In this document: piece after piece, positions 1-29,919 of the stretch
How the letters are laid out: every line of letters begins with the position of its first letter
Position numbering within the stretch: the stretch's first letter is position 1
Source: Chamaelirium japonicum
Taxonomy: Eukaryota; Streptophyta; Magnoliopsida; Liliales; Melanthiaceae
Direction of reading: 5' to 3'
DNA length: 64,000 nt
NCBI GenBank assembly: GCA_947650365.1
Contig: CANTAL010000200.1
Location: 372,001 to 436,000, forward strand
Program-made: the position numbers and the translations under genes
The notes under the pieces: generated by a model
Seen by the model: the letters and a program-made list of their open reading frames with translations, nothing else
Databases searched by the model: none
What the model was told of the DNA's origin: nothing

Positions 1-2421
1 TCCTTGATCTTGGCCTTGAGAGATTGTTTCTTCGAACTCAGGAGCTCCCTCAGCCCATCTCTTTCCTCGCTCACAGCTTTCAGTTCAGCTGTCAAACGGG
101 TTACCTCAGAGGCGGCTTCCCGTTCTCCTGCCTTCCTGGAGAGCTTGCTTGCGATTCTCAAACAGGCTGAGTTCTGTAAATAGACAAAGAGTTAGAATTA
201 TTCTGAAGATACAATTTGAACAATTGATCAAAGCATATGCACATACCACTACTTCAAGCCGATCGAAGGCTTCTTCAAAAGTAGCTTCAGGAAGATTGCA
301 AAGCTTTCGGAGCGTGTTAGTAGGATGGTTGATGTCAACATCACCCAAACTCCTTATCTTCTTAGCCGGGCCAGCAGGTGTACCTACAATCCATGTAGCA
401 ATTCTAAGTGTTAGTATATTTTCAAGCTTCAAAGACAAGACAGTCAATCAAAACAGGTTAGTACAGATACCTGAAGCCTCGACTTGGGGAGCCTTTCCCT
501 TCCCACTGCCGGAGCTCTTACCCTTGAGGGTCGATTTCTCCTTGGTGGGGGTTGACTCTGGCAAGGGTTGAGGAGTAGCTTCACCAACCCGACTTCCTCT
601 CTCCAAATTAGCAGGAGAGGGAACGTCTCGAGGAGGTGAAGCTCCCCCTTCGTCCTCGTGCCCGCTCGAATGGTCTAGCCCTGCCACCATGGCAGCCACC
701 TCTTCAGCCAGAGATAGTGAGGGGGGTGGGGGTTGTTCAACCTCCACACCCCCACTTGTAGTTGCCCCTTCCAGGCGGGGAACCTCAGGAGGTATCTGAT
801 CGAGGGGTGTGGGGTTGCTTCCAACCCCACCACTCCCCGATATCCTGATCTTGAAGCGGAGGGGGTTCTTCTTCAACTCCCCAAAGTCGTAGGTGGGAAT
901 CACCTTGGGGCCATCGCCCGTTGCATCCAAAACTTCCTCCATCTTGCGAGCCTTATCCTCGTTTATGAGGATAGGCTGCGATTCCTCGTCAGCACCACCA
1001 GTGGGGGTGGGAGGAATTTCTTCCTCACCACCCCCATATCCTTGACCACCATCAGTGGGGGTGGGAGGACGAAATTCCTCACCACCCCCATCTTCATCAT
1101 CCTCATCTTCATCTTCCCCATCTTCTTCGTCTTCCCCATCGCTACCTGTGCCTTCATCCTCCTCATCTCCGCCCTCCTCCTCCATCTCTACCTCTTCTTC
1201 GTCATCTTCATCATTCTTTTTCTCCTCATCCTCCTCCTGCTTGATGAGGACTTTTCTCTTCTTCTTCGCCGGCCCTTTTGGAATTACCAGCTTCTCCTTC
1301 GGGGGCAAGTTGCGCCATGCTCCATAAACCTTCTTCTCGAATCGAAGCCTTCTGACAATTTTTCCAGACTGAGGGTCTTCCTCGTAATCAGAGTAGATGA
1401 CCTCATTGTCTTCGTATCGAAGCTTCGATCGATGGAGGAGGTTGGCCTTGCCGTGTCGGACCGGGCAGTTCGAGAACTGCTTCCAAGATCGGGTCCCACA
1501 GGTCAACTCCAGGAAGAGATTATCGAGAGACCCCACCTGCTTCGGAGGCCACGCGAGAGCTCCTCCTGCACAGAACATGTCCGTCTCTTCTTGTACCTTG
1601 TACCGAGGAACCTCCGGGACTGACATAGGAGTCCAGGCACCCGACACCGACAGCGGCCAGTCCGTGTATAGCTTGTCGGAGCCGATGGTATCGATGATTG
1701 GGCGCAGGGCAGAGACACCCGTCATATAATAGAAGGGGCTATCTTTCCTCCAGGCCCATCGGTAATGGTAAAAGAAATATCCAAACTCAATCCGAGCTTC
1801 TTCAACTTCGGGAAGGCTGGAGTAGCATTTCCTCAGCTCCTCCTGGAAGTCTGACTCTACGCGACAGAAAGCGTAGATGATCCTCCAGGAGTTTCCAGTC
1901 ACCTGCCCGGGACAGAGACCAGAAATATTCAATAACCTCGCAGCAAAAGGAGGCAGTGGAAGGCGCAGTCCACAGTTAAGCTGGCCAATCGTAACGATAG
2001 TTCCCATCACTTGCTCCTTGCTCGCCCATGAAACGAAGACTGTCCGCCTGTCAATACCAAAAGCTGACATAATTCCTGGAAGCGCTGGCCGGGACTTCCC
2101 CTCAGTAAAACATGCTAGCAGCTTATGCAGTTTCTCCCTCTTCGCATCTGTGAGTTTGCCCCCTATGTTATACCCAAATTCTGGTTCCACCGATAGAGGT
2201 AGTTGAGGGCTGAGGACAAACTTTGCTTTAGGGATCTGCTCTGGCCTTGATGGGGCTGAAGCAAACCCAACTCCCTGATGCCTTTTACCAAGTTGACCAA
2301 GTTCGATCAATTCGGCCCTGCCTTTGCCACGGCCCTTCGAGACAGTCGTTTCCTCGACAACTTCCTTCCCCTTTCTCTTGGATGGAACAGCACCCTTCTT
2401 CGAACTGCCCGAAGATGCCAT
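1..2421 (-). CDS. E1 antisense gene, spliced, gypsy-type transposase-like domain; runs off the left edge
   Basis: Three exons are visible on the minus strand: 2421-471, 383-247 and 173 to beyond base 1. Both introns have GT and AG ends and keep phase. The ATG at 2421 is chosen because a TATA box lies 105 bp upstream and the next protein (E2) also starts MASS. Residues about 135-275 carry the shared domain: LRLPL near 152-156, GLCPGQ near 168-173 and GNSW near 176-179, all matched in the E2 gene. This resembles the plant 'putative gypsy type transposon' family (recalled, not searched). A lysine-rich signal PAKKKRKV sits at 384-391, followed by an Asp/Glu tract at about 396-450 and Pro/Ser-rich sequence. 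The second exon encodes a short module, and the third begins a Leu/Glu/Lys-rich likely coiled coil. Function is unknown; a nuclear protein is plausible. It is antisense to the LTR transcript. Confidence 0.8.
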
Positions 2422-2520
2422 TTGACTGATCGAAAGGAAATGAACAAGAAATGGGAAGCAAAGAATCTAGACTTCGAAAATTTTTGGAAGCGCGAGGCGA
2501 AAAATGACAGCCAGTGAAAC

Positions 2521-2607
2521 TTATATCCCCAGGGTAAAACAGGTGCGCAAATCGAGAAGACACGTGTCTTTACCATATCAAATCGCGTGTTTTTCTAGGT
2601 ACACGTG
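2521..2607 (-). promoter_or_regulatory. Promoter of the E1 antisense gene
   Basis: Read on the minus strand, a TATA-like GATATAAG lies over 2520-2527, about 105 bp before the ATG at 2421. Upstream are two CACGTG boxes. One is inside the 12-bp palindrome AGACACGTGTCT at 2558-2569. The other is at 2602-2607 in the context GCCACGTGT. Both fit the ACGTGTC/ACGTGGC type bound by plant bZIP (G-box/ABRE) factors. The same 12-bp palindrome occurs in the E2 antisense promoter. That it is an active promoter is inference. Confidence 0.6.
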
Positions 2608-2863
2608 GCATCCATCCGTAGCAAGCGCAAAACCAGGCGAACAGTCGCGACCAGGCGAAACGTCAGACCACCGGTCCAAGCAAACCACCGGTCCAAGTGA
2701 ACCAGACCGTCTGTTCAGAAGAACCATTCAAAAAAAAAAAAGAAGACCAATGATGCAAAAACAGAAAAAATCAAACTCCATCGATATTCAAAACTGCCAA
2801 AGATCAAAAGAGTAGAACAAGCTATGCCACTTCAAAAGTACAGGTTCAACTCAAACTTTTACT
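2608..2863. other. E1 unique spacer between antisense promoter and tandem array
   Basis: Non-coding and AT-rich, with a run of A near 2730. A direct repeat of ACCACCGGTCCAAG occurs twice near 2667-2697. No gene or other signal is seen. Confidence 0.5.
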
Positions 2864-4325
2864 GGCTGATTTTAGCCGAACGGTCAAATATGACCGTTCG
2901 GCCGAAATCAACCGATCGGTCGATTTTCTACTAGATCCGGCGAAAAACTAAGGTTTTTTACCGATCACCCAAACCTTGACCGCCTGATTTTAGCCGAACG
3001 GTCAAATATGACCGTTCGGCCGAAATCAATCGATCGGTCGATTTTCTACTAGATTCGGCGAAAAACTAAGGTTTTTTGCCGATCACCCAAACCTTGACCG
3101 GCTGATTTTAGCCGAACGGTCAAATATGACCGTTCGGCTGAAATCAATCGATCGATCGATTTTATACTAGATCCGGCGAAAAACTAAAGTTTTTTGCCGA
3201 TCACCCAAACCCCGACCGGCTGATTTTAGCCGAACGGTCAAATATGACCGTTCGGCCGAAATCAATCGATCGGTCGATTTTCTACTAGATCCGGTGAAAA
3301 ACTAAGGTTTTTTGCCGATCACCCAAACCTCGACCGGCTGATTTTAGCCGAACGGTCAAATATGACCGTTCGGCCGAAATCAATCGATCGGTCGATTTTC
3401 TACTAGATCCGGCGAAAAACTAAGGTTTTTTGCCGATCACCCAAACCTCGACCGGCTGATTTTAGCCGAACGGTCAAATATGACCGTTCGGCCGAAATCA
3501 ATCGATCGGTCGATTTTCTACTAGATCCGGCAAAAAACTAAGGTTTTTTGCCGATCACCCAAACCTTGACCGGCTGATTTTAGCCGAACGGTCAAATATG
3601 ACCGTTCGGCCGAAATCAATCGATCGGTCGATTTTCTACTAGATCCGGCGAAAAACTAAGGTTTTTTGCCGATCACCCAAACCTTGACCGGCTGATTTTA
3701 GCCAAACGGTCAAATATGACCGTTCGGCCGAAATCAATCGATCGGTCGATTTTCTACTAGATCCGGCAAAAAACCGAGGGTTTTTTGTCGATCACCCAAT
3801 CCTTGACCGGTTGAAATTGACCGTTCGGTCAAATTTAACCGATCAGTCAAATTTAACCGATCGGTCAAAATCAACCGATCGGTCAAAATTCCACTGGATC
3901 GGTCAAAAAACCATGTTTTTTGACCGATCACTCAATCCTCGACCGGTTGAAATTGACCGTTCGGTCAAATTTAACCGATCGGTCAAATTTGACCGATCGG
4001 TCAAATTTGACCGATCGGTCAAATTTGACCGATCGGTCAAAATCAACCGATCGGTCAAATTTCCACTGGATCGGTCAAAAAACCATGTTTTTTGACCGAT
4101 CACTCAATCCTCGACCGGTTGAAATTGACCGTTCGGTCAAATTTGACCGATCGGTCAAAATCAACCGATCGGTCAAATTTCCACTGGATCGGTCAAAAAA
4201 CCGTGTTTCTTGACCGATCACTCAATCCTCGACCGGTTGAAATTGACCGTTCGGTCAAAATTAACCGATCGGTCAAATTTGACCGATCGGTCAAAATTGA
4301 CCGATCGGTCAAAATTGACCGACTA
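2864..4325. repeat. E1 internal tandem array, 118-bp base period, two subfamilies
   Basis: Twelve head-to-tail copies. Eight type A copies start at 2864, 2982, 3100, 3218, 3336, 3454, 3572 and 3690, so the step is 118 bp. Four type B copies start near 3807, 3943, 4115 and 4233, with lengths 136, 172 and 118, that is 118 plus one, three or zero extra 18-bp blocks; the last copy is partial. Each type A copy has a perfect hairpin with 12-nt arms GCCGAACGGTCA and TGACCGTTCGGC and a 4-nt loop. Type B copies carry serial palindromes GACCGATCGGTC. Both types share the GATCAC(C/T)CAA...GACCGG segment. Open frames here are by-products of the repeat. Hypervariable tandem arrays before the 3' LTR are known in Tat/Ogre-type elements. 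Confidence 0.92.
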
Positions 4326-4433
4326 ATCTTTTTTGTGCTAACACTCGACAAGCTTCTTCGTGCCTTTTTTCGACAGGGGATTGCTATTTTTTGCACCAAA
4401 TCCAAGCCAGCCAGAACGAACTCTAGCTAACTT
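4326..4433. other. E1 unique segment before the polypurine tract
   Basis: About 108 bp of single-copy, T-rich then A-rich sequence linking the tandem array to the polypurine tract. No gene is seen. Confidence 0.5.
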
Positions 4434-4444
4434 GGAGGGGGTAA
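4434..4444 (+). promoter_or_regulatory. E1 polypurine tract (plus-strand primer)
   Basis: GGAGGGGGTAA lies two bases before the LTR's first TG at 4446. An identical 11-nt tract abuts the LTR of E2 on the minus strand. In LTR retroelements this site primes plus-strand DNA synthesis. It fixes the plus orientation of E1. Confidence 0.75.
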
Positions 4445-4483
4445 CTGTGGGTGCAAATTTTGGCAGAAGTATACCGACTACCG

Positions 4484-4698
4484 CGGGACCCATCGGCCCT
4501 GCCTGGTGGGCCCACGAAGACTACCACGGGACCCACCGGCCCTGCCTGGTGGGACCACGAAGACTACCACGGGACCCACCGGCCCTGCCTGGTGGGCCCA
4601 CGAATACTACCACGGGACCCACCGGCCCTGCCTGGTGGGCCCACGAGGGCCACCGCGGGACCCATCGGCCCTGTCCGATAGGCCCACGAGCCTGTAGA
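4484..4698 (+). repeat. 43-bp tandem repeat inside the E1 LTR (about five copies)
   Basis: Copies start at 4484, 4527, 4570, 4613 and 4656, a constant 43-bp step. Each contains CGGGACCCA and GGCCCTGCCTGGTGGG. It lies about 100-320 bp upstream of the LTR TATA box, where U3 enhancers usually sit. The period is not a multiple of three, and open frames across it on both strands are by-products. Confidence 0.9.
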
Positions 4699-4801
4699 AA
4701 CCCCCAAAAGACGGCAGCGGAGCCCACCAGCTTTACCTGGAGGATCCCCAGATACGATAGCAAAAACCGCCATTTGCCCCGGAATTCCTCCCCGGGAATC
4801 C

Positions 4802-4809
4802 TATAAATA
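4802..4809 (+). promoter_or_regulatory. E1 LTR TATA box
   Basis: TATAAATA in the middle of the LTR, expected to start the element's sense transcript about 30 bp further right. Since this is the right-hand LTR, transcription from it would leave the element and enter the satellite. Confidence 0.65.
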
Positions 4810-5216
4810 GCAGAGCCTTCGAATGTAAAAGGATCGAAATCTGAGATCGAACTCTCAGTTCTAAAAAACCAGAGCTGTGGGATTTCCAACTTCCCATCAT
4901 CCACCTCTCTTCGATCTTCTTTTTCTCTCGGAGAGATTAGAGTTTTCAGTGATACTCGGCCTGTCGAGATCACTTCAACATAAGTGTTAGTGAATTCGGG
5001 TTGCTCCCTATAGCACGGAGACGTAGGCTTCGGCTGAACTCCGAGATCACATCTCCTGTGTCAAACTCTCTCTCTGATTGCCTCTCTGTTTACATATCGA
5101 AAGAGGTAACTTCAACTCCAATCAACAGATCGACCAACGATCTTCGACGTCAACTTCAACTCCAATTGACTGGTGCTGCGAGAGTCTTCGGGTCGGCACG
5201 AAGATTTTCCCCCACA

Positions 5217-8200
5217 TGAATGAATAAGAATGGATCGTACGAATGAATTAGAATAGATCGTATGAATGAATTAGAATGGATCGTGCGAATGAATTAGAAT
5301 GGATCGTACGAATGAATTAGAATGGATACATTCGTGCGAATGAATTAGATTGGATCGTACGAATGAGTAAGAATGGATCGTACGAATGAAATAGAATGGA
5401 TCGTACGAATGAATTAGAATGGATCGTGCGAATGAATTAGATTGGGTCGTGCGAATGAATTAGAATGGATCGTACGAATGAGTAAGAATGGATCGTACGA
5501 ATGAAATAGAATGGATCGTATGAATGAATTAGAATGGATCGTACGAATGAAATAGAATGGATCGTATGAATGAATTAGAATGGATTGTATGAATTAGAAT
5601 GGATCGTATGAATGAATTAGAATAGATCGTGCCAATGAATTAGAATGGATCGTACGAATGAATTAGAATGGATCGTACGAATGAATTAGAATGGATCGTA
5701 CGAATGAATTAGAATGGATCGTGCAAATGAATTAGAATGGATCGTACAAATGAATTAGAATGGATATATTCGTGCAAATGAATTAGAATGGACCGTACGA
5801 ATAAGTAAGAATGGATCGTACGAATGAAATAGAATGTATCGTACGAATGAATTAGAATGGTTCGTGCAAATGAATTAGATTGGATCGTGTGAATGAATTA
5901 GAATGGATCGTACGAATAAATTAGAATGGATACATTCGTGCGAATGAATTAGAATGGATCGTACAAATGAGTAAGAATGGATCATACGAATGAAATAGAA
6001 TGGATCGTACGAATGAATTAGAATGGATCGTGCAAATGAATTAGATTGGATCGTGCGAATGAATTAGAATGGATCGTACGACTGAATTAGAATGGATACA
6101 TTCGTGTGAATGAATTAGAATGGATCGTATGAATGAAGTAGAATGGATCGTATGAATGAATTCGAATGGATCGTACGTATGATATAGAATGGATCGTACG
6201 AATGAATTAGAATGGATCGTATGAATGAATTAGAATGGATCGTGCGAATGAATTAGAATGGATCGTACGAATGAATTAGAATGGATACATTCGTGCGAAA
6301 GAATTAGAATGGATTGTATGAATGAATTAGAATGGATCGTGCGAATGAATTAGAATGGATCGTACGAATGAATTAGAATGGATCATAAGAAGGAATTAGG
6401 GTGGATCGTACGAATGAATTAGAATAGATCGTGCGAATGATTTAGATTGGGTCGTGCGAATGAATTAGAATGGATCGTACGAATGAGTAAGAATGGATCG
6501 TGCGAATGAAATAGAATGGATCGTATGAATGAATTAGAATGGATCGTACGAATGAAATAGAATGGATCGTATTAATGAATTAGAATGGATCGTATGAATT
6601 AGAATGGATCGTATGAATAAATTAGAATGGATCGTGCCAATGAATTAGAATGGATCGTACGAATGAATTAGAATGGATCGTACGAATGAATTAGAATGGA
6701 TCGTATGAATGAATTAGAATGGATCGTGCAAATGAATTAGAATGGATCGTATGAATGAATTAGAATGGATACATTCGTGCGAATGAATTAGAATGGACCG
6801 TACGAATAAGTAAGAATGGATCGTACGAAAGAAATAGAATGTATCGTACGAATGAATTAGAATGGTTCGTGCGAATGATTTAGATTGGATCGTGCGAATG
6901 AATTAGAATGGATCGTACGAATGAGTAAGAATGGATCATACGAATGAAATAGAATGGATCGTACGAATGAATTAGAATGGATCGTGCGAATGAATTAGAT
7001 TGGATCGTGCGAATGAATTAGAATGGATCGTACGAATTAATTAGAATGGATACATTCGTGTGAATGAATTAGAATGGATCGTATGAATGAATTAGAATGG
7101 ATCATATGAATGAATTCAAATGGATCGTACATATGATATAGAATGGATCGTACGAATGAATTAGAATGGATCATATGAATGAATTAGAATGGATCGTGCG
7201 AATGAATTAGAATGGATCGTACGAATGAATTAGAATGGATACATTCGTGCGAAAGAATTAGAATGCATTGTATGAATGAATTAGAATGGATCGTGCGAAT
7301 GAATTAGAATGGATCGTACGAATGAATTAGAATGGATCATAAGAAGGAATTAGGGTGGATCGTACGAATGAATTAGAATGGATCGTACGAATGAATTAGA
7401 TTGGGTCGTGCGAATGAATTAGAATGGATCGTACGAATGAGTAAGAATGGATCGTACGAATGAAATAGAATGAATCGTATGAATGAATTAGAATGGATCA
7501 TACGAATGAAATAGAATGGATCGTATGAATGAATTAGAATGGATCGTATGAATTAGAATGGATCGTATGAATGAATTAGAATGGATCGTGCTAATGAATT
7601 ATAATGGATCGTACGAATGAATTAGAATGGATCGTACGAATGAATTAGAATGGATCGTGCAAATGAATTAGAATGGATCGTGCAAATGAATTAGAATGGA
7701 TACATTCGTGCGAATGAATTAGAATGGACCGTACGAATAAGTAAGAATGGATCGTGCGAATGAAATAGAATGTATCGTACGAATGAATTAGAATGGTTCG
7801 TGCGAACGAATTAGATTGGATCGTGCGAATGAATTAGAATGGATCGTACGAATAAATTAGAATGGATACATTCGTGCGAATGAATTAGAATGGATCGTAC
7901 GAATGAGTAAGAATGGATTATACGAATGAAATAGAATGGATCGTACGAATGAATTAGAATGGATCGTGCGAATGAATTAGATTGGATCGTGCGAATGAAT
8001 TAGAAAGGATTGTACGAATGAATTAGAATGGATACATTCGTGTGAATGAATTAGAATGGATCGTATGAATGAATTAGAATGGATCGTATGAATGAATTCG
8101 AATGGATCGTATATATGATATAGAATGGATCGTACGAATGAATTAGAATGGATCGTATGAATGAATTAGAATGGATCGTGCGAATGAATTAGAATGGATC

Positions 8201-18300: not shown

Positions 18301-19221
18301 CGAATGAAATAGAATGGATCGTACAAATGAATTAGAATGGATCGTGCAAATGAATTAGATTGGATCGTGCAAATGAATTAGAATGGATCGTATGCATGAA
18401 TGAATGAATTAGAATGGATCATACGAATGAATTAGAATGGATCGTACGTATGAATTCTAATAATTTGAATGGATCTATTCTAATTCATTTGCACGATCCA
18501 TTCTAATTCATTCGTACGATCCATTCTAATTCATTCGCACGAATGTATCCATTCTAATTAATTCGTACGATCCATTCGAATTCATTCATACGACCCATTC
18601 TAATTCATTCATACCATCCATTCTAATTCATTCGCATGAATATATCCATTCTAATTCATTCGTACGATGCATTCTAATTCCTTCGTACGATCAATTCTAA
18701 TTCATTTGCACGATCCATTCTAATTCATTCGCACAATCTATTCTAATTCATTCGTACTATCCATTCTATTTCATTCGTAAGATCCATTCTTACTCATTCG
18801 TACGATCCATTCTAATTCATTGCACGAATGTATCCATTCTAATTCATTCGTACGATCCATTCATTCGTACGATCTATTCAAATTCATTCGTACGATCCAT
18901 TCTAATTTATTCGCACGAATGAATTAGAATAGATTGTGTGAATGAATTAGAATGGATCGTACGAATGAATTTGAATGGATACATTCATGCGAATGAATTA
19001 GAATGGATCGTATGAATGAATTAGATTGGATCGTATGAATGAATTTGAATGGATTGTATGTATGAATTAGAATGGATACATTCATGGGAATGAATTAGAA
19101 TGGATCGTACGAAGGAATTAGAATGGATCATACGAAGGAAATAGAATGGATCGTATGAAGGAATTAGAATGGATCGTACGTTATGAATGAATTACAATGG
19201 ATCGTACGAAGGAATTAGAAT
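12382..19221. repeat. Satellite mosaic with alternating orientation
   Basis: The same 23/28-bp units switch direction about every 0.3-1.6 kb. Approximate blocks: R 12382-12988, F 12989-13506, R 13507-14082, F 14083-15713, R 15714-16012, F 16013-16731, R 16732-17130, F 17131-18470, R 18471-18916, F 18917-19221. F means GAATTAGAATGG on the plus strand; R means CCATTCTAATTC on the plus strand. No gene or other element is seen inside. Confidence 0.9.
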
Positions 19222-22200
19222 GGATCCATTCTAATTCATTCTAATTCATTCGTACGATCCATTCTAATTCATTCATACGATCCATTCTAATTCATTCATA
19301 CGATCCAATCTAATTTATTCATATGATCCATTCTAATTCTTTCGCACGAATGTATCCATTCTAATTCATTTGCACGATCCATTCTAATTCATTCATACGA
19401 TCCATTCGAATTCATTTGCACGAATGTATCCATTTTAATTCATTCTAATTCCTTCGTACGATCCATTCGTACAAACCATTCTAATTCCTTCTCACGAATG
19501 TATCCATTCTAATTCATTCGTACGATCCATTCTAATTCATTCGCACAATCTATTCTAATTCATTCGTACTATCCATTCTAATTCATTAGCACGATCCATT
19601 CTAATTCATTCGTACGATCCATTCTATTTCATTCGTATGATCCATTCTTACTTATTCGTACGATACATTCTAATTCATTCGCACGAATGTATCCATTCTA
19701 ATTCATTTGTACGATCCATTCTAATTCATTCGCACGATCCATTCTAATTCATTCATACGATCCATTCTAATTCAATCGTAAGATCCATTCTAATTCATTC
19801 GCACGATCCATTCTAATTCATTCATACGATCCATTCTAATTCATTCATACAATCCATTCTAATTCATTCGCAGGAATGTATCCATTCTAATTCATTCGTA
19901 CGATCCATTCTATTTCATTCGTACGATCCATTCTAATTCATTCGTACGATCCATTCTATTTCATTCGTATGATCTATTCTAATTCATTCGCACGAATGTA
20001 TCCATTCTAATTCATTCGTACGATCCATTCTAATTCATTCGCACGATCCATTCTAATTCATTCGTACGATCCATTCTAATTCATTCACAAGATCCATTCT
20101 AATTCATTAATACGATCCATTCTAATTCATTCATACAATCCATTCTAATTCATTCGCACGAATGTATCCATTCTAATTCATTCGCATGATCCATTCTAAT
20201 TCATTCATACGATCCATTCTAATTCATTTATACAATCCATTCTAATTCATTCGCAAGAATGTATCCATTCTAATTCATTCGTACGATCCATTCTATTTCA
20301 TTCGTACGATCCATTCTATTTCATTCGTATGATCCAATCTAATTTATTAGCACGATCCATTCTAATTCATTCGTACGATCCATTCTATTTCATTCGTATG
20401 ATCCATTCTTACTCATTCGTACGATCCATTCTAATTCATTCGCACGAAGGTATCCATTCTAATTCATTCCTATGATCTATTCTAATTCATTCACACGATC
20501 CATTCTAATTCATTCGTACGATCCATTCTAATTCATTCGCATGAATGTATCCATTCTAATTCATTCGTACGATCCATTCTAATTTATTCGCACGATCCAT
20601 TCTAATTCATTCATACGATCCATTCTAATTCATTCATATGATCCATTCTAATTCATTCGCACGATCCATTCTGATTCATTTACACGATCCATTTTAATTC
20701 ATACAATCCATTCTAATTCTTTCACACGAATTTATCCCTTCTAATTCATTCGTACGATCCACCCTAATTCCTTTGTGTGATCCATTCTAATTCATTCGCA
20801 CGAATGTATCGTACGAGAATTAGAATGGATCGTACGTATGAATTAGAATGGATCATACGAATGAGTAAGAATGGATCGTACGAATGAATTAGAATGGATC
20901 GCACAAAGGAATGAATTAGAATGGATACATTCGTACAATCCATTCTAATTCATTCGTACGATCTATTCTAATTCTTTCGCACGATCCATTCTAATTCTTA
21001 CGCACGAATGTATCCATTCTAATTCATTCGTTCGATCCACCATATTTCCTTCGTATGATCCATTCTAATTCATTCGTACGATCCATTCTAATTCATTCGT
21101 ACGATCCATTCTAATTCATTCATGCGATCCATTCTAATTCATTCATACGATCCATTCTAATTCATTCGCACGAATGTATCCATTCTAATTTATTCGTACG
21201 ATCCATTCTAGTTCATTCGCACAATCTATTCTTATTCATTCGTATGATCCATTCTTATTCATTCGCACGGTCCATTCTAATTCATTCATACGATCCATTC
21301 AAATTCATTCATACGATCCATTCTAATTCATTCGTACGATCCATTCTAATTCATTCGCACGATCCATTCTACGTACGACCCGTTCTAATTCATTCCCATG
21401 AATGAACCATTCTAATTCATTCGTACGATCCATTCTTACTCATTCGTACGATCCATTCTAATTCATTCGCACGAATGTATCCATTCTAATTCATTCGTAC
21501 GATCCATTTTAATTCATTCGCACGATCCATTCTAATTCATTCGTACGATCCATTCTAATTCATTCATACAATCCATTCTAATTCTTTCGCACGAATGTAT
21601 CCATTCTAATTCATTTATACGATCCATTTTAATTCATTCGCACGATCCATTCTACTTCATTCATACGATCCATTCTAATTCATTCGTACGATCCATTCTA
21701 ATTCATTCGCACAATCCTTTCTAATTCCTTCGTACGATCCATTCTAATTCATTCGTACGACCTATTCTATTTCATTCGTACGATCCATTCTTACTCATTC
21801 GTACGATCCATTATAATTCATTTGCACGAATGTATCCATTCTAATTCATTCGTACGATCTATTCTAATTCATTCGCACGATCCATTCTAATTCATTCATT
21901 CGATCCATTTTAATTCATTCATACGATCCATTCTAATTCATTCGCACGATCCATTCTAATTTATTCATACGATCCATTCTAATTTATTCAGACGATCCAT
22001 TCTAATTTATTCGCACGAATGTATCTATTCTAATTCATTCGTATGATCCATTCTATTTCATTCGTACGATCCATTGTTACTCATTCGTACGATCCACTCT
22101 ATTTCATTCGTACGATCTATTCTTACTCATTCGTAGGATCCATTCTAATTCATTCGCACGAATGTATCCATTCTAATTCATTTGTACGATCCATTCTAAT

Positions 22201-23486
22201 TCATTCGTACGATCCATTATAATTCATTCATATGATCCATTCTAATTCATTCGTACGATCCATTCCAATTTATTCGCACGATCCATTCTAATTCATTCAT
22301 ACGATCCATTCTAATTCATTCAAACAATCCATTCTAATTCATTCACACAATCTATTTTAATTCATTCGTACAATCTATTATAATTCATTAGCACGATCCA
22401 TTCTAATTCATTCGTTCGATCCATTCTATTTCTTTCGTACGATCCTTTCTTACTCATTCGTACTATCCATTCTAATTTATTTATACGATCCATTCTAATT
22501 CATTAGCATGATCCATTCTAATACATTCGTACGATCCATTTTATTTCATTCATACGATCTATTCTTACTCATTCGTACGATCCATTCTAATTCATTCGCA
22601 CGAATGTATCCATTCTAATTCTTTCATACGATCCATTCTAATTCATTCGCACGATCCATTCTAATTCATTCGTACGATCCATTCTAATTCATTCATACAA
22701 TTCATTCTAATTCTTTCGCAAGAATGTATCCATTCTAATTCATTCGTACGATCTTTTCTAATTCATTCGCACAATCTATTCTAATTCCTTCGTACGATCC
22801 ATTCTAATTCATTCGTACGATCCATTCTTACTCATTTGTACGATCCATTCTAATTCATTCGCACGATCCATTCTAATTCATTCATACGATCTATTCTAAT
22901 TCATTCATACGATCCATTCTAATTCATTCGCACGATCTATTCTAATTCATTCATATGATCCATTCTAATTCATTTGGACGAATGTATCCATTCTAATTCT
23001 TTCGTACGATCTATTCTATTTCATTCGTACGATCCATTCTTACTCATTCGTACGATCCACTCTATTTCATTCTTACGATCCATTCTTACTCATTCGTACG
23101 ATCCATTCTAATTCATTCGCACGAATGTATCCATTCTAATTCATTCATACGATCCATTCTAATTCATTCGCACGATCCATTCTAAATCATTCATACGATC
23201 CATTCTAATTCATTCGTATGATCCATTAAAATTCATTCGCATGATCCGTTCTAATTCATTCATACGATCAATTCTAATTCATTCAAACAATCCATTCTAA
23301 TTCTTTCGCACGAATGTATCCATTCTAATTCATTCGTTCGATCCACCCTAATTCCTTCGTACGATCCATTCTAATTTATTCGCACGAATGCATCCATTCT
23401 AATTTATTCGTACGATCCATTCGAATTTATGCATACGATCCATTCTAAATCATTCATACGATCCATTCTAATTCATTCATATGATC
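19222..23486 (-). repeat. Satellite array, orientation R, left of E2
   Basis: Continuous R-oriented array of 23/28-bp units except for a short F island at about 20815-20935. It runs directly into the E2 target duplication TGATC at 23482-23486, and the same array resumes right of E2. Confidence 0.95.
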
Positions 23487-23682
23487 TGTTTGGGGGATTT
23501 TTCCTGGTCCTTGCGAGCCACCTGTAAGATCAAGAAAAGAGAAACGTGAGAACGGCTGGCTCCCTTAGGAGCGCAGACCCTCCGACGCTCAAGTCAGTTA
23601 TGTAACACAACGGAGAACTGTTGTATACCAAAGAGGTAGTGAAAGGGATTTCGAACCTGTACTTTGGAGCCTGGGGGTGTGC

Positions 23683-23689
23683 ATTTATA
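23683..23689 (-). promoter_or_regulatory. E2 LTR TATA box
   Basis: On the minus strand the sequence reads CTATAAATGC, about 195 bp before the LTR end. It would drive transcription leftward, out of the element and into the R-oriented satellite. Confidence 0.5.
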
Positions 23690-24089
23690 GACATGGGCGA
23701 CCTATCGAGCTACGACGCGTGGAGGCTCTTTCCGGCACCTTCTAGGCCCCCACGTTCTAGCCTTCAATAGTTTCTGACAGTTCTTGGAACTTGGACTCCT
23801 GACATTCTTTGTCGTCTAGCTCTTCTGACACAGTAGTGGGGGACAGCATCTGCTATTCTGTTGCCGCCATAGGGATCTTCCAGAATGTTCAAGTCTAGGA
23901 GGTCTCAAACCGACTCTGACTGGTTTCCATGGACTGCAATCGTCCACGTAGCTTTAGTGGGTTCTCGACACCTGGCAATCTCAGGGAAAAAGCAAAGGCC
24001 AGCTCGCCCAATACTGCTCCGTCCTTTCGCCCATATTTATCAAGAGTTGGACCTCGCGGGAGCAACCTCTTCGATAAACAGGGGTCTAG

Positions 24090-24500
24090 GCGAGCTGCTG
24101 GGCGAGCTTCTGAGCGAGCTTGGGCGAACTCCTGGGCGAGCTTGGGCGAGCTCCTGAGCGAGCTAGGCGAGCTCCTGAGTGAGCATGGCGTGCTCCTAAA
24201 TGAGCTTGGGCGAGCTCCTATGCGAGCTAGGCGGGCTCATTAGTGAACATGGCGAGCTCCTGGACGAGCTAGGCGAGCTCCTGAGCGAGCATGGCGAGCT
24301 CCTGGACGAGCTAGGCGAGCTCCTGAGCGAGCATTTCGAGCTCCTGGACGAGCTAAGCGAGCTCCTGAGCGAGCATGACGAGCTCCTGGACGAGCTTGGG
24401 CGATCTCCTTCGCACTCTTTGTCTAAGCCATTTATCGAATATGGGCGAGTATGGCGAGCTCCTGGATGAGCTTGGGCGAGCTCCTTCGCGCTCTTTGTCT
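24090..24500. repeat. 42-bp tandem repeat in the E2 LTR
   Basis: Regular copies start at 24251, 24293, 24335 and 24377, a 42-bp step, flanked by less regular half-units. Each holds GCGAGCTCCTGGACGAGCTA or a close variant, rich in the palindrome GAGCTC. Since 42 is a multiple of three, long frames stay open by chance. The right-hand LTR copy carries the same block at about 29506-29660. Confidence 0.88.
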
Positions 24501-24664
24501 AAGCCATTTATCGAATTTGGGCGTGCTTCTGTGGGGGACTGGAGGTGTGAGCTGTACTCAGATACAAGGTGTCCATCCCGCTCCATGTGAAGGCGAGCCC
24601 CTGACGAGGGTTCCAACTTCTGGGCGGGCTATCCAAGATATGTGGTTTTTAACTACCCCCAACA

Positions 24665-24676
24665 TTACCCCCTCCT
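24665..24676 (-). promoter_or_regulatory. E2 polypurine tract
   Basis: On the minus strand AGGAGGGGGTAA directly precedes the LTR start TGTTGGGGG. Eleven bases (GGAGGGGGTAA) are identical to the tract of E1. This gives the element's orientation independently of the TATA box. Confidence 0.75.
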
Positions 24677-24779
24677 GAGGGAGTGATCGAGGAAACTCGA
24701 CACTTGCTCAGGAATCTTAGCGAGTTCCTATCCCTCGTAATGTGCCTGATATCAATGTCTGCTGCAACAGTTTCCTGAC

Positions 24780-26027
24780 GGGGCGGAGATAGTAGCTACG
24801 GGCGATCTGCACCGAGAGTTTTGACTGCCAGTTTTTCAACGAACGCTGGTCGGGCCGGAAGCATCAGCCACGAGCAATCTCCTTCTGGTGGTCGCTTTAT
24901 CTTGAATGCGATGCGAGGCTGCGAGCATCTGCTATGAGCTATCTCTCCTTAGTGAAACCTCGAGAACGATGTTGTTACAACAATCGCTGGGCGGGCCTGG
25001 AGCATCAGCCGCGAGCGATCTCCTTCCGATGCAAGCATGTCACACGCGGTCAGGGTCTGCGTCGGGCGAGCTGCGGGCACCTGCCGTGAGCGATCTGCGC
25101 CGAGAGCTTTGACTGCCTGTACTTCACAAACGCTGGGCGGGCCACGAGCGTCAGCCACGAGCGATCTCCTTCCGGTGCAAGCATGTCACACGCGGTCAGG
25201 GTCTGCGTCGGGCGAGCTGCGGGCACCTGCCGCGAGCGATCTGCGCCGAGAGCTTTGACTTGGCGTCTCATGGGTGAGACCTCGAGGACGATGCTGCTAT
25301 GTCCAAGGAACGCAGCTATCCGCTACTGCAAGCGTCGGGCGGGCCAGGAGCACCTTCCGCGGGCGGCCTCCTTCCGGTGCGAACTAGCCACGAGCGTCAG
25401 CCACGAGCGATCTCCTTCCGATGCGAGCTTGTCACATGCGGCCAGGGTCTGCGTCGGGCGAGCTGCGGGCACCTGCCGCGAGCAATCTGCGCCGAGAGCT
25501 TTGACTCGGCGTCTCATGGGTGAGACCTCGAGGACGATGCTGCTATGTCCAAGGAACGCAGCTATCCGCTACTGCAAGCGTCGGGCGGGCCAGGAGCACC
25601 TTCCGCGGGCGGCCTCCTTCCGGTGCGAACTAGCCACGAGCGTCAGCCACGAGCGATCTCCTTCCGATGCGAGCTTGTCATATGCGGCCAGGGTCTGCGT
25701 CGGGCGAGCTGTGGGCACCTGCCGCGAGCAAACTGCGCCGAGAGCTTTGACCGCCAGTTCTTCTCAAAAGCTGGGCGGGCCACGAGCGTCAGCCACGAGC
25801 GATATCCTTCCGATGCGAGCTTGTCACATGCGGCCAGGGTCTGCGTCGGGCGAGCTGCGGGCACCTGCCGCGAGCAATCTGCGCCGAGAGCTTTGACTGC
25901 CAATACTTCACAAACGCTGGTGGGCCACGTGCGTCAGCCACGAGCGATCTCCTTCCGATGCGAGCTTGTCACATGCGGCCAGGGTCTGCGTCGGGCGAGC
26001 TGCGGGCACCTGCCGCGAGCGATCTTG
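24780..26027. repeat. E2 internal tandem array, 146-bp and 246-bp units
   Basis: The anchor GGGTCTGCGTCGGGCGAGCT starts at 25053, 25199, 25445, 25691, 25837 and 25982 (one copy has GAGCTGTG after it). Steps are 146, 246, 246, 146 and 145, so the long unit is the short one plus 100 bp. More diverged copies precede the first anchor back to about 24.8 kb. Frames of up to 237 codons across it are repeat by-products. It occupies the same place as the 118-bp array of E1 but shares no obvious sequence with it. Confidence 0.88.
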
Positions 26028-26132
26028 TGACTTGGGTATCGCACCAAATCTCCAACGGTCGCTTTGTCTTAAATGCGACGCGAGACTCAATGCTGATACA
26101 GCGAATCTCATCATGAGATCCCGATCGGCGCG

Positions 26133-26339
26133 AGACACGTGTCTCCTCCTCATTTGTTCTTCTTCTGTCAGAAATGACAGTGTCGGCGCCGGCGCAGCTT
26201 TTTCCACGCGTGGCCCACGTGGCGCTTGACGATTGGAAGGGAACGAGCTGTCGCTTCACCTGTCGTCACGTCGCCTCGCTGAGCGCGCTCGGGCATTAAC
26301 TGCGGCCCGATTCACCTTTCTTTCATTTGCCTATAAATA
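26133..26339 (+). promoter_or_regulatory. Promoter of the E2 antisense gene
   Basis: TATAAATA at 26332-26339 lies 104 bp before the ATG at 26436. CACGTG boxes occur at 26136-26141, inside the 12-bp palindrome AGACACGTGTCT (26133-26144), and at 26216-26221 in the context CCCACGTGGC. These are plant bZIP (G-box/ABRE) type sites. The palindrome and the TATA-to-ATG spacing match the E1 antisense promoter. Activity is inferred. Confidence 0.65.
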
Positions 26340-26435
26340 GGGGAAGGGGGACGATTTTTTACCGCTGCGTGAAAACAGCTCTCCCTTCTCCCCTAACCTT
26401 CTCAACTCGCAGCTCGCTTGCGCCCTCTTGCTCTC

Positions 26436-27545
26436 ATGGCTTCCTCTGCTGCTGCTTCTTCTTCAGCCACTGCTGCTGCTGCTGCGATCTCCCGGGAGGA
26501 GCCTCTCAATGTCGCCCCCATCTCGGTGCGTGCTCCGGGCACCGAGAAAGAGGCTCCTCCCAAGGTGCCCGCCGTCCTCTGGTTCAACGACATCGGGGGC
26601 GTGCCGGTCCCCGAGAGTCTACGGACAGCGGCGGGCATCCCCCAAGAGCTCGACATCCTTCCTTTCCCGAGATCGGGGAGACCGCTCTCCGGAACTGCGG
26701 TCTCCGTGGGGCAAATATGGTCAGGGCTCCGACTGCCCCTGAACCATCTAGCCAGCGAGCTCCTGGAGCTGGCGGGCTTATGCCCCGCTCAGCTCCCAGG
26801 CAACTCGTGGGGGATTCTCTACGGGCTTTCTCAAATCGAGGAAGCCCTTAACGTGAGGATCCCCCTGGCCTATCTCCTGAAGAAGTGGTCCCTCAAGCCA
26901 GGGACAATCTTCAGCGAGGTCGACTGCGGCCACTACTACCTCGCAGGCCGCCCTGGCGAGGTGCTGCCCTTCTCCGCGGTCGAGAACAAAGACCGATATT
27001 GGAAGGAGTATCCATTCGTGATCGAGGGCAACTGGCGAGGTCCCTGCGCCGGAGTCCGCTCCTTTCCCGGCAGACCGCCTCTGCCGGTCTTCAAGGAGAT
27101 CGCGGAGTATCGCTCTATGGGGAAGAAGTGTATCTCGGCAGCCCGAGAGAAATCTCTCGATGAGGCGATCCTGGAGTTCCTCGGCGGGCGGACTCCGGAC
27201 AAGGTCCTGGCCCCGGACTTCTCCTTCCTCTGGAAGGATCTCCGGACGGGCACCATCATGACCCGCCAGAAGATCATGCGCAAGAAGGTGGCGGTCTCTC
27301 GCCGCACCGGGGCGACCTCCCAGGCTGCTGCCGCGCCCGCCGGTGTCGGCACTTCTTCGGCGAGGAAGGGGAAGAAGAAACGAGCTTCTCCGATCAGTCT
27401 CGCCGATGTAGACACCATCGACATGCTCCGCGAGGAGGATATTCCCTCGCCGCCGCCTCCATCCCGCGAGGTTGCCCCAGGTCAGGCGAACTCCCCCTTC
27501 GTTTCCAATCCCCTCATGCACTCCTCAGTTTCGGAACCTCCATGA
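26436..27545 (+). CDS. E2 antisense gene region A: gypsy-type transposase-like domain
   Basis: An open frame of 369 codons starting MASSAAASSS at the first ATG after the TATA box. After an Ala/Ser-rich start, residues about 93-205 hold the domain shared with E1: LRLPL near 98-102, GLCPAQ near 114-119 and GNSW near 122-125. A basic ARKGKKKRA stretch lies near the end. Codon third positions are GC-rich, unlike the satellite around it. The best family guess is the plant 'putative gypsy type transposon' domain (recalled). Its job is unknown. It runs antisense to the element's LTR transcript. The E2 gene as a whole is treated as a fossil. Confidence 0.7.
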   Translation: MASSAAASSSATAAAAAISREEPLNVAPISVRAPGTEKEAPPKVPAVLWFNDIGGVPVPESLRTAAGIPQELDILPFPRSGRPLSGTAVSVGQIWSGLRLPLNHLASELLELAGLCPAQLPGNSWGILYGLSQIEEALNVRIPLAYLLKKWSLKPGTIFSEVDCGHYYLAGRPGEVLPFSAVENKDRYWKEYPFVIEGNWRGPCAGVRSFPGRPPLPVFKEIAEYRSMGKKCISAAREKSLDEAILEFLGGRTPDKVLAPDFSFLWKDLRTGTIMTRQKIMRKKVAVSRRTGATSQAAAAPAGVGTSSARKGKKKRASPISLADVDTIDMLREEDIPSPPPPSREVAPGQANSPFVSNPLMHSSVSEPP

Positions 27546-27557
27546 CGTCAAGTTGTG

Positions 27558-29485
27558 ATGGTCGACCCCGAGGACCCGCGCGTCGAGCTCCTTCTTGGCA
27601 TGGCGGAGGTGGAAACCCCAATGGCCGAGATACTGATGCGGGAGTTCCCGGGCGACCTTTCTAAACCTCTTTATGTCGCGGTAATGACCCCAGAGATGGA
27701 GGGCGCCCATATAAAGAAGAAGAAGAAGAAGGCTCCAGCAGCCCGCCCAATGGCGGAGGACGACGCCGTTCGCAAGGCTCGTGAAGCCTATGCACGAGCC
27801 ATTGAGGACAGGAAGAAAGCCGCCCTCGAGGAAGCGGGCTTGCCATCGGGCGAGGATTCCAGCGATGAGTCCAGCTCGGAAGAAGAGGAGCCGCGGTCTC
27901 TCGAGGACGAGCCCGCTTCTACGACAGCGAGGCCTCCCCTGCCCTTCGAGGGACCGGCGCCAATGAGCCCGCTACCTTCTGCACCTGCTCCGGCCAAGAC
28001 CTCGGTACCGGCCGCTCCTGCCCCTAGCATGCCCGCGCAGGAACCTGCTCCCGAGCCCTCGCCTGTGCCTGCGCTTGCGCCCGAGCTCGGACCCGTGTCC
28101 GAGCCTGCGCCCGCGCAGGAACCTGCTCCTGCGTCCAGGCTCGCGCCTGCGCCCGCGCCCGAGCCCGCGCTTGCGCCTGAGCCCGCGCCTGCGCACGAGC
28201 CCGCGCCTGCTCCCGAGCCCGCGCGTGCGCCCGAGCCCGCGCCCGCGTCTGAGCCCGCGCCTGCGCCCAAGCCCACGCCTGCTCCCGAGCCCGCGCTCGC
28301 TCTCGAGACTGCGCTTGCGCCTGAGTCTGCGCCTGCGCCCGAGCCCGCGCCTGCTCCCGAGCCCGCGCCTGCGCCCGAGCCCGCGCCTGCTCCCGAGCCC
28401 GCGCCTGCGCCCGAGCCCGCGCTCGCGCCCGAGCCCGTGCCTGCTTCCGAGCCCGCGCCTGCGCCCGAGCCCGCACTCGCGCCTGAGTCCGCGCCCGCCA
28501 CTCTTGAGGTTCCCCCTCTCCCTGAGCTGGGCAGGTTGGCCTATTGGTCTCCGGATCTAGGGGCCATCCTGGACGACTTTCCGAGCTCCAGCTCGGAAGC
28601 CTCGGACCCGGACCTGCCGGGGCGAAGGGGAGCCGCCGCGCCTTCCCCTACCAACGAAGGAATTGCCGGCGCTCAAGAGGCCGAGCCTGCTGCTGCCTCC
28701 ATCAGTGCGCCCCCTCCAGCTGCTCCCACCGAGGCGAGCCAAGCGGGCTCCTCCACTGGCGGTCCTGAGCGCGCCCCTTTCTTCATGCGGGAGATCCTGG
28801 GGCGCAATATCTTTGCCCAAGCTCCCTACGTCGATATCATTAACCGACTGCTCGAGGTAAGGCCGCCTCCATACTCCTTTATCTCCAAACCCCCGCTTCA
28901 ACTTCTAACTTAATCTGCTCGCTTTCTCCGTAGGTAGAGCGGGTCGGCCGGGCTCTTGTTGACGAGGTCGCAGAAGTCGCGGGGAACACCGTTGCTCTCT
29001 ACGATGACACTCTCCATGACTCGGAGAGGAGAGTAGACGAGTACATTCTTCGAATCCGCCAAATGGACCAGTCAGGCGAGCTGCGGGCTGAAGTGGACCG
29101 ACTGCGCCAGCAGGTCGCCTCCTCTAACACGGAGGTCAACGAACTGCGCCAGCGGGCTGCCACCTTCACCACCACGCTAGCTTCGGTTGAGGATGCCCGC
29201 GACCGCGCCCTATCCGATGCGGAGGCCGCCCAGAAGGAAGTCTCCGAGCTTCAACGTCAGTTGGCGGCCTCCAGGGATGAGATCGCGTCTCTGAAGGAAA
29301 CGCATCTCCAAGACCTCCACTCCCAGCAACGCCGCCTCCAGGCGCAACTCAACGAGCTTCTGCAGAAAGGCGCAATCGACGCCATCGAGAAGTACAAGGC
29401 CGAAAGGTCGAAAAAGAGGAAGCGCGGCGGTGACGACGAGGGCGCTGGCGCGGGCCCAGTTTGGGCGAGCTCCTATGCGAGCTAG
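27558..29485 (+). CDS. E2 antisense gene region B: acidic, Pro/Ala/Glu-repeat and coiled-coil parts
   Basis: Directly downstream of region A on the same strand. The first exon part (27558-28856) encodes a lysine run near 27713-27736, a Ser/Glu acidic stretch, a long EPAPAP-type repeat and a short module ending near NRLLE. A GT-AG intron is visible at 28857-28933. The part after it (from 28934) encodes a heptad-like Leu/Arg/Glu/Gln-rich coiled coil of about 140 residues, then a basic KKRKRGG. The order (acidic tract, short module, intron, coiled coil) mirrors E1. The last codons run into the right-hand LTR copy, so the natural C-terminus is not seen. Function is unknown. Confidence 0.6.
28026..28500 (+). 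repeat. Minisatellite coding Pro-Ala-Glu repeat
   Basis: Units of 18 bp (GAGCCCGCGCCTGCGCCC and variants) encode EPAPAP and close variants, about 25 times. The opposite strand stays open for 150-237 codons because of the repeat. Low-complexity hinge-like protein is the likely outcome if translated. Confidence 0.85.
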
Positions 29486-29919
29486 GCGGGCTCATTAGTG
29501 AACATGGCGAGCTCCTGGACGAGCTAGGCGAGCTCCTGAGCGAGCATGGCGAGCTCCTGGACGAGCTAGGCGAGCTCCTGAGCGAGTGTTTCGAGCTCCT
29601 GGACGAGCTAAGCGAGCTCCTGAGCGAGCATGACGAGCTCCTGGACGAGCTTGGGCGATCTCCTTCGCGCTCTTTGTCTAAGCCATTTATCGAATATGGG
29701 CGAGTATGGCGAGCTCCTGGATGAGCTTGGGCGAGCTCCTTCGTGCTCTTTGTCTAAGCCATTTATCGAATTTGGGCGTGCTTCTGTGGGGGACTGGAGG
29801 TGTGAGCTGTACTCAGATACAAGGTGTCCATCCCGCTCCATGTGAAGGCGAGCCCCTGACGAGGGTTCCAACTTCTGGGCGGGCTATCCAAGATATGTGG
29901 TTTTTAACTACCCCCAACA
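29461..29919 (-). repeat. E2 right-hand LTR copy, 459 bp
   Basis: Aligns without gaps to 24206-24664 of the left-hand LTR, with four substitutions in 459 bp, all at CpG positions. It ends CCCCCAACA before the target duplication TGATC. It is shorter than the left-hand copy. Confidence 0.92.

Follow-up and report, generated by a model that had tools for sequence, protein, structure and literature searches.

An antisense gene of Retand-like Ty3/gypsy elements in Chamaelirium japonicum is under purifying selection and has a history partly separate from that of pol

Two Ty3/gypsy retroelements of C. japonicum, here termed E1 and E2, each carry an intron-containing gene that adjoins the 3' LTR and runs antisense to gag-pol. 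To judge from the sequences, these genes are homologous and represent the Transposase_28 (TRP28) antisense ORF published for Retand elements, their shared domain is under purifying selection, and the more closely related elements have traded the gene or its flanks. We place the probability that the identity of the gene, the selection and the exchange all hold together at roughly 0.8. The basic fact of Retand-type antisense ORFs was previously in print (excerpts of PMC11963269, PMC6317226 and PMC7264820), as the preliminary description of this DNA had said of antisense genes in such plant elements; what is added here is the selection on the domain, the conserved introns and the mosaic evolution of the gene relative to pol.

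Results

Both elements form islands within a 23-bp satellite in the window, the stretch of 64,000 nucleotides that was analysed. E1 (1..5216, plus strand, boundaries taken from the sequence) is the right part of a full-length element that continues leftward beyond the window into L039, where its 5' LTR (L039:2164-2934), gag-PR, RT-RH-second RH and INT are found. Its 3' LTR (4446..5216, plus strand) is 98.8% identical to the 5' LTR and is preceded directly by a polypurine tract (about 4434-4445), and the TSD TGAAT is present on both flanks (L039:2159-2163 and window 5217-5221). An unstranded tandem array (2852..4322) consists of 118-bp units grading to 18-bp units, in which the palindrome ACCGATCGGT is abundant: with at most one mismatch it occurs 24 times in the array, once in E1 gag-pol and not at all in the LTR or in exon 1 of the antisense gene. 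E2 (23487..29919, minus strand; TSD TGATC at 23482-23486 and 29920-29924), set against the copies L044 to L049, is an internally deleted relative that has lost gag, pol and some of the 5' LTR. Its 3' LTR (23487..24664, minus strand) contains 21/42-bp GGCGAGCTCCTG repeats and has the polypurine tract directly to its right, its unstranded array (24980..26025) is built of 146-bp units, and the 5' LTR remnant (29459..29919, minus strand) is joined to the end of the antisense gene. Per kb, the word GCGAGC occurs 15.3 times in the E2 array and 18.6 times in the E2 LTR, as against 2.3 times in the antisense gene and 3.8 times in the L048 gag-pol. Both motifs were picked after the commonest words had been viewed and, as the words of a repeat unit will abound in any tandem array of it, such counts alone are no sign of binding.

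RVT_1, RT_RNaseH, RVT_3 (a second RNase H-like domain) and rve follow each other in that order in E1 (L039) and in the E2 copy L048, and a long region with an antisense ORF between pol and the 3' LTR, a Retand/Tat trait, is present. By these features, E1 and E2 are two families of one dual-RNase-H, Tat/Retand-like Ty3/gypsy lineage. The view that most of their coding sequence is unrelated had to be given up, as gag-PR is 33%, RT-RNase H 56% and INT 51% identical, with the E2 gag and pol taken from another copy because the window E2 is deleted there.

The E1 antisense gene lies on the minus strand and starts at ATG 2421. Exon 1 (471..2421) encodes a MASS start, the Transposase_28 domain, an NLS-like AKKKRKV cluster and an acidic tract, and is followed by intron 1 (384..470, GT..AG, 87 bp, phase 1), exon 2 (247..383, 137 bp), intron 2 (174..246, GT..AG, 73 bp, phase 0) and the C-terminal part in exon 3 (1..173), which extends into L039, where a stop ends it at about L039:9625. 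The E2 gene, on the plus strand, starts at ATG 26436; exon 1 (26436..28856) encodes a MASS start, the E1-homologous domain and a Pro/Ala/Glu repeat that makes up the middle of the protein, and is separated by one intron (28857..28933, GT..AG, phase 0) from exon 2 with the heptad-rich C-terminal part (28934..29458). The internal deletion cuts the last codon of this exon, and the frame runs through LTR sequence to 29485. The window copy also has a premature stop at 27543-27545, leaving a frame of 382 aa, and the remaining 110 E2 copies among the matches listed have longer frames of at least 461 aa. In an E2 copy retaining gag-pol, pol lies on the strand opposite the antisense gene.

Homology of the two antisense genes is shown by BLASTP of the proteins (68.9 bits, E=3e-17 as a single comparison, 26% across 256 aa) and by hhalign of the domains (probability 98.8%). 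The preliminary description, which had located both genes correctly and asked for such a check of domain similarity, had ascribed one full plan to them. This plan is only partly common property: the MASS start, the domain and a phase-0 intron that directly precedes the final exon (intron 2 in E1, the single intron in E2) are shared, but E1 has two introns and E2 one, the acidic tract reaches 75% D/E over the best 40 aa in E1, where it is strong, against a weak 37.5% in E2 (copy L013), and the heptads expected of a coiled coil are clear in the E2 tail (observed value reached by 3/200 shuffles) but not in that of E1 (32/200).

Against the cut-off of 26.2 bits, the PF04195 profile scores 26.6 with the trimmed E1 protein, 25.7 with the longer one and 12.7 with E2 alone, which we count with Transposase_28 through its BLASTP homology to E1; all eight members of the trimmed E1-type alignment are matched at E up to 1. 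The plant mobile domain PF10536 was rejected, being unmatched in 8 members at E up to 1 and in 9 members at E up to 10, and three PDB matches with E of 0.05 or worse were judged to be chance. NCBIfam profiles gave no match to two E1-type proteins and one low-complexity match, far under the cut-off, to the E2 protein, and a motif scan of the retrieved loci for additional domain types found none. AlphaFold models of the two window proteins were discarded (mean pLDDT 31), and the fold gives DNA binding no support. With its position, its orientation and a PF04195 score that in E1 lies about the cut-off, the gene is taken to be the Retand TRP28/Transposase_28 antisense ORF, a kind already known.

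Promoter-like sequences precede both genes, in E1 at 2520..2607 on the minus strand (TATAAG at 2520-2525, CACGTG at 2561-2566 and 2602-2607) and in E2 at 26136..26339 on the plus strand (CACGTG at 26136 and 26216, TATAAATA at 26332). The TATA element stands at -104 from the ATG in both, each ATG has two CACGTG boxes at most 430 bp away (shuffle P of 0.001 and 0.006), and both regions contain the 12-mer AGACACGTGTCT, whose length was equalled in 6/300 shuffle pairs; promoter-like features are common to both genes, as proposed earlier. Among eight upstream regions scanned, that of L057 has no TATA and that of L055 no CACGTG.

Selection was assessed in nine genes, the window's gene and 8 of 137 matches picked for long frames, a choice that biases omega low, as does the ranking of E2 copies by protein similarity. 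The 36 domain pairs comprise 12 that are saturated and 24 with a finite omega, 23 of which lie between 0.042 and 0.133 (dS 0.26-3.2, unreliable above about 2); L054-L056, which are too similar (dS 0.02), fall outside at 0.30. Bootstrap upper bounds are at or below 0.203 in five domain pairs, and the tail gives 0.16-0.35 in the 28 pairs that have one. Omega is 0.118 among E2 copies (29/30 loci, one lacking the exact start word being dropped) and 0.36 in the young E1 family (5/8 loci, three with broken frames being dropped). These values show purifying selection on the antisense domain, and the comparison of synonymous and non-synonymous rates supports the earlier suggestion that the product matters to the elements. 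In the E2 protein search, which gave at least 111 matches, every copy is 96-100% identical and at least 106 are stop-free over the matched stretch; no E2-side intermediates occur among the matches listed.

Exon 2 is 137 nt long in five of six genes measured and 136 nt in L053. It is gap-free in 10/10 pairwise alignments of five genes, with 1-16 gap columns in intron 1 and 0-3 in intron 2; L052, L053, L055 and L057 were left out as too short, broken at the acceptor or unalignable there. Acceptors in these alignments were located by pattern, which makes the AG partly a matter of construction, and a separate display shows them without it. Donors and acceptors are seen in the relatives, with one acceptor broken (L053); at sequence level, most of the relatives examined retain the introns together with their splice sites and the exon frame.

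Antisense dN exceeds pol dN in all ten pairs compared. The ratio is 1.79-2.35 in the seven pairs that include the L055 element or E2, for which pol came from L048 and the antisense gene from the window, i.e. from different copies. This range shows that, on the deep time scale, the antisense gene and pol evolved in step, and the gene would most simply have been inherited from a common ancestor of E1 and E2. Among closer relatives, the ratio reaches 8.1 for E1 and the L057 element (bootstrap 4.5-17.6; pS 0.38 in pol, 0.86 in the antisense gene), and is 3.5 (2.04-7.09) for E1-L050 and 3.2 (1.64-9.01) for L050-L057, the last two intervals overlapping the deep range. Upstream of the gene, E1 and L057 are 94% identical in the -200 to -100 bin and 78% in the -100 to 0 bin, and the first twenty coding bins range from 52 to 79%.

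The antisense genes of E1 type and L057 type are 72% identical and synonymously saturated. RTs at least 97% identical to that of E1 nevertheless occur with both, in at least 14 RT-antisense pairs, at least 10 of them E1-type (E1 included) and at least four L057-type; the other 117 of 131 E1-RT matches listed have no partner among the matches listed and are uninformative. The L059-type RT (131 listed) is paired with L057-type antisense genes (128 listed) at least 31 times, 5.52-5.73 kb apart, and with E1-type genes (129 listed) 0 times among the matches listed. Since these searches score the best candidates, all counts are lower bounds. Three pol partners were sequenced (L058-L060), and a pol match sought at a fourth expected site, L061, was absent. 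One candidate swap, the C22 copy, whose RT is 98% identical to that of L059, was dismissed, as its antisense gene is L057-like (92% aa). L054 and L056 are near-identical in exon 1 and exon 3 but only 71% and 82% identical in the intervening intron 1 and exon 2, and the replaced tract of L056 resembles L051. How far pol and the antisense gene disagree varies with pair and segment. Gene and pol histories thus differ among these closer relatives, and the comparisons show that elements have swapped the antisense gene or the sequence flanking it.

Discussion

Could the discordance reflect faster mutation or substitution of the antisense gene on some branches, with no exchange? The antisense gene does outpace pol in all ten pairs, and the E1-L050 and L050-L057 intervals overlap those of the deep pairs. 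We regard this explanation as unlikely, however, because the E1-L057 ratio stands far outside the range of the seven deep pairs, synonymous sites are hit as well, the pattern differs by pair and segment, and L054 and L056 differ mainly at one internal, L051-like tract. An independent capture of two genes that converged on one plan is scarcely conceivable: middle regions, intron number and G-box spacing do differ, but position, orientation and the phase-0 intron ahead of the last exon are alike, pol is homologous between the elements, and the significant BLASTP and hhalign homology contradicts an independent origin of the antisense genes.

It is also very improbable that the antisense transcript matters rather than the protein, pairing with sense RNA to feed small-RNA silencing and limit copies, with the frame incidental. 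The gene is antisense to the element, has a promoter-like sequence of its own, and a dsRNA idea has been voiced (excerpt of PMC7264820). An RNA function gives codons no protection, however, which disfavours it as the sole function given the low domain omega, an exon 2 of constant length in five of six genes between introns that vary, and an E1-E2 amino-acid similarity that persists despite saturated synonymous sites. As to what the protein does, it may, at what we hold to be somewhat below even odds, bind DNA and repress or limit the element that encodes it, similar to HBZ, or be a helper of nuclear import or integration, and not an anti-silencing factor. The NLS-like clusters, the heptad-rich tail of E2 and the antisense position, for which a retroviral parallel has been drawn (excerpts of PMC11963269 and PMC7264820), suit such roles. 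In the comparisons made, a positive link to integrase or capsid did not emerge. The family-specific arrays adjoining the gene fit a DNA target better than import, and sequence cannot separate repression from activation.

The closest known system is the Retand TRP28 ORF (excerpts of PMC11963269 and PMC6317226), which shares with E1 and E2 the antisense orientation, the position between pol and the 3' LTR, PF04195 and a tandem array in the same region; the LTRs of E1 (771 bp) and E2 (1,178 bp) also fall within the Retand range of 315-1,194 bp, although E2 alone stays under the Pfam cut-off. In the survey of PMC11963269, 97% of the Retand clusters with recent activity are reported to have antisense TRP28 genes. 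The main text of that paper nowhere uses the words intron, selection, synonymous or G-box, and its mentions of recombination are confined to a domain name and to descent from an unknown virus. Grande gene23 of maize, RIRE2 and Silene Retand likewise have an antisense gene between pol and the 3' LTR, a likeness drawn from description, and for the maize Grande homologue a promoter of its own and a nuclear protein are reported (both from excerpts of PMC7264820). The plant mobile domain ORF is also an extra domain in Ty3/gypsy elements, and its host relatives MAIL1/MAIN act in silencing (excerpt of PMC5418596), but PF10536 gives no match here, at E up to 10, to any of nine members scanned. The HTLV-1 gene HBZ, to which PMC11963269 refers, is an antisense retroelement gene with a nuclear product, again alike by description, and no homology is claimed.

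We propose that the TATA/G-box promoter would drive transcription of the antisense gene toward pol. Its introns could outlast transposition because the packaged RNA would be the sense strand, in which they are no introns. The product may be a nuclear protein with NLS-like clusters, an acidic or Pro/Ala-rich spacer and, in E2, a coiled-coil-like tail, and could act upon the DNA or chromatin of its own element. Its likeliest action, which we advance tentatively, would be that of a sequence-specific regulator on family-specific motif arrays that keeps the element transcribable. The logic would resemble that of VANC, an element-encoded protein of VANDAL transposons whose targets are often tandem repeats that vary among related elements (excerpt of PMC5735166), although VANDAL elements are DNA transposons, a different class, and the arrays here are seen as sequence alone. 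One might further speculate, and we consider this rather doubtful, that the protein is a self-recognition factor of Retand elements, whose domain reads the adjoining array (in E1 the palindromes of GACCGATCGGTC type, in E2 the GCGAGC-type repeats) and thereby gives the element protection or activation, with specificity swapped as elements exchange antisense-gene alleles by template switching and pol as common property. The low omega counts against rapid coevolution with a target, for which it is unexpected, though constraint and changing specificity can coexist.

Taken together, the constraint at codon level implies that the antisense protein is used, and the passage of the gene between elements with a common pol implies that it acts as a functional unit of its own. 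The arrays adjoining the gene offer a concrete candidate for its DNA target. If the protein is indeed a self-recognition factor, it would be the retrotransposon counterpart of VANC anti-silencing.

Results

The stretch C212:372001-436000 of the 1.52-Gb genome consists mostly of a satellite with a 23-bp unit, interrupted by two islands, the elements E1 and E2. The strand of this satellite flips often, with 28 changes between successive runs among the 32 runs of at least five motif copies (window 5218-23481 and 29925-64000). The E1 island is the right-hand portion of a full-length element of the Ty3/gypsy type; the remainder, which includes the 5' LTR, gag-PR, RT-RNase H and integrase, is in L039, the DNA left of the window. 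The E1 LTRs are 98.8% identical, and TGAAT is read from the sequence as the 5-bp target duplication. E2 is a relative of E1, inserted between copies of a TGATC duplication. Its window copy retains the 3' LTR, the array and the antisense gene, but gag and pol have been lost together with a portion of the 5' LTR. At the break of this internal deletion, window 29459, LTR sequence follows directly on the final codon of the antisense gene, so that little of the element's interior remains besides this gene and the array. E2 copies with gag and pol were found elsewhere in the genome (L044-L049). On contig C266 (L044-L046), three E2 antisense copies at 208009, 220368 and 232727 are spaced by exactly 12,359 bp, and because two of the E2 LTR regions recur at the same spacing, these elements seem to stand in tandem, with LTRs common to neighbours.

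In both families, a single TAG interrupts the frame that gag-PR and pol share (L039:5556-5558 for E1; L048:7246-7248, minus strand, for E2). It is followed by CAATCA in E1 and CAATTA in E2, which is the context of tobamovirus-type readthrough, UAG-CAR-YYA. This arrangement was present in all six loci examined (L039, L041, L058, L059, L048 and L045). In E1's own pol, a further TAG lies in frame after the RNase H part and before integrase (L039:7653-7655); a 1126-aa pol frame occurs in many of the 131 RT matches listed, and many related copies have this frame without that TAG. At L061, the expected pol place of the L051 element, a pol match was absent, for which a deletion derivative, a nested insertion or a different spacing are possible causes.

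The E1 antisense gene lies on the minus strand, with exon 1 at 471-2421, exon 2 at 247-383 and exon 3 from 173 leftward, and that of E2 on the plus strand, with exons at 26436-28856 and 28934-29458. In the window E2 gene, exon 1 contains a premature stop, leaving a 382-aa frame; in each of the other 110 matches listed, the frame is 461 aa or longer. The preliminary description had proposed a similar domain in both genes, and indeed the two proteins are homologous across approximately 250 residues (BLASTP E=3e-17; hhalign 98.8%). PF04195 was found in all eight members of the trimmed E1-type alignment (E up to 1) and matched the E2 protein weakly (12.7 bits, E=0.16). The same description held most other coding sequence to be unrelated, which is incorrect: E1 and an E2 copy are 56% identical in RT-RNase H, 51% in INT and 33% in gag-PR, next to 28% over the best stretch of the antisense protein. 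Their LTRs gave no useful alignment (43% identity when a global alignment was forced). As E1 and E2 are relatives, their common antisense gene requires no special transfer between strangers.

Purifying selection, in line with the suggestion that the product matters to the elements, was seen in pairwise comparisons of exon 1 among the window E1 gene and eight E1-type genes (L050-L057), taken from 137 matches for long frames and spread, a choice that favours working genes. In the domain, omega (Nei-Gojobori) ranged from 0.042 to 0.133 for 23 of the 36 pairs, whose dS spans 0.26-3.2 and is unreliable at its high end. Another 12 pairs were saturated; the last one, L054-L056, gave 0.30 at a dS of 0.02. 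The upper bootstrap limit was at most 0.203 in five domain pairs. Values were 0.16-0.35 for the exon 1 tail and 0.04-0.07 for pol (three pairs). Among E2 copies omega was 0.118, a figure from 29 of 30 loci that is biased low because the loci had been ranked by similarity of the protein. Among E1 copies it was 0.36 in the five left after three were dropped for broken frames.

Counterparts of both E1 introns are present in the E1-type genes extending that far. Exon 2 measures 137 nt in five of six genes and 136 nt in L053, in which the intron-1 acceptor is broken. In the ten pairs of five genes, exon 2 is always gap-free, and introns 1 and 2 have 1-16 and 0-3 gap columns, respectively. Introns of a retroelement are expected to persist only where the transposing RNA leaves them unspliced, and their persistence would fit the antisense orientation of the gene.

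Upstream of both window genes, a TATA lies at -104 and CACGTG boxes at -145 and -186 (E1) or -220 and -300 (E2). Two such boxes are rare in dinucleotide shuffles (P 0.001 and 0.006), and the length of a 12-mer common to both upstream regions was equalled in 6 of 300 shuffle pairs. At least one CACGTG is retained in 29/29 E2 and 7/8 E1 copies, and TATAAG in 5/8 E1 copies; of the eight upstream regions that were fully scanned, that of L055 lacks CACGTG and that of L057 the TATA word. The pattern is no more than suggestive of an antisense promoter.

For five elements with both genes, E2's being drawn from different copies, we divided dN of the antisense domain by that of RT-RNase H, taken over 118-153 codons of its frame. 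The ratio was 1.79-2.35 in seven pairs involving the L055 element or E2, and 8.1 (bootstrap 4.5-17.6) for E1 and the L057 element; the other two pairs gave 3.5 (2.04-7.09) and 3.2 (1.64-9.01), overlapping the range of the deep pairs. Synonymous divergence between E1 and the L057 element agrees (pS 0.38 in pol, 0.86 in the antisense gene). Upstream, these two are 94% identical from -200 to -100 and 78% from -100 to 0; over the first twenty coding bins, identity is 52-79%. L057-type antisense genes lie 5.52-5.73 kb from L059-type pol in at least 31 pairs, and therefore belong with it to one element. Among the 131 matches listed for the E1 RT, all 97-100% identical, ten (E1 included) stand beside an E1-type and four beside an L057-type antisense gene. 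Between L054 and L056, exon 1 is almost identical and the opening 120 bases of exon 3 fully so; the tract between them is diverged (intron 1 71%, exon 2 82%), and there L056 resembles L051 (exon 2 91%).

Discussion

We read this discordance as recombination, most simply as template switching, a process reported for other plant LTR elements (PMC1950507). Antisense TRP28 ORFs are known from 97% of Retand clusters, where the region also contains tandem arrays and the product is suggested to bind DNA (PMC11963269); Transposase_28 is listed for 23% of Retand elements in PMC6317226. The words intron, selection, synonymous, silenc-, VANC and G-box are absent from the main text of PMC11963269. A link of the TRP28 gene to anti-silencing was not found in the titles and abstract openings of papers listed for Retand together with anti-silencing, nor in passages of two of these papers, a weak negative with few subscription journals covered.

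The presence of basic NLS-like clusters, of a spacer and of a tail that is heptad-rich in E2 suggests that the antisense product is a nuclear protein; for the maize Grande gene, a review (PMC7264820) reports that the product is nuclear and that the gene has its own promoter. Each antisense gene adjoins a family-specific array. Within its 1,471 bp, that of E1 holds 24 copies of a palindrome resembling ACCGATCGGT, which occurs once in the 5.7-kb gag-pol and in neither exon 1 nor the LTR; in E2, the density of GCGAGC is 15-19 per kb across the array and the LTR compared with 2-4 in gene and gag-pol. As tandem arrays are by nature rich in their own words, these motifs are candidate targets, nothing more. 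The VANC proteins of VANDAL transposons often have tandem-repeat targets, differing between related elements (PMC5735166). Due to this likeness to the family-specific arrays beside the E1 and E2 genes, we place first among single mechanisms, with a probability of about 0.3, that the antisense protein may be a VANC-like regulator. The combined probability of an HBZ-like repressor or a helper of import is about the same as that of the VANC-like regulator.
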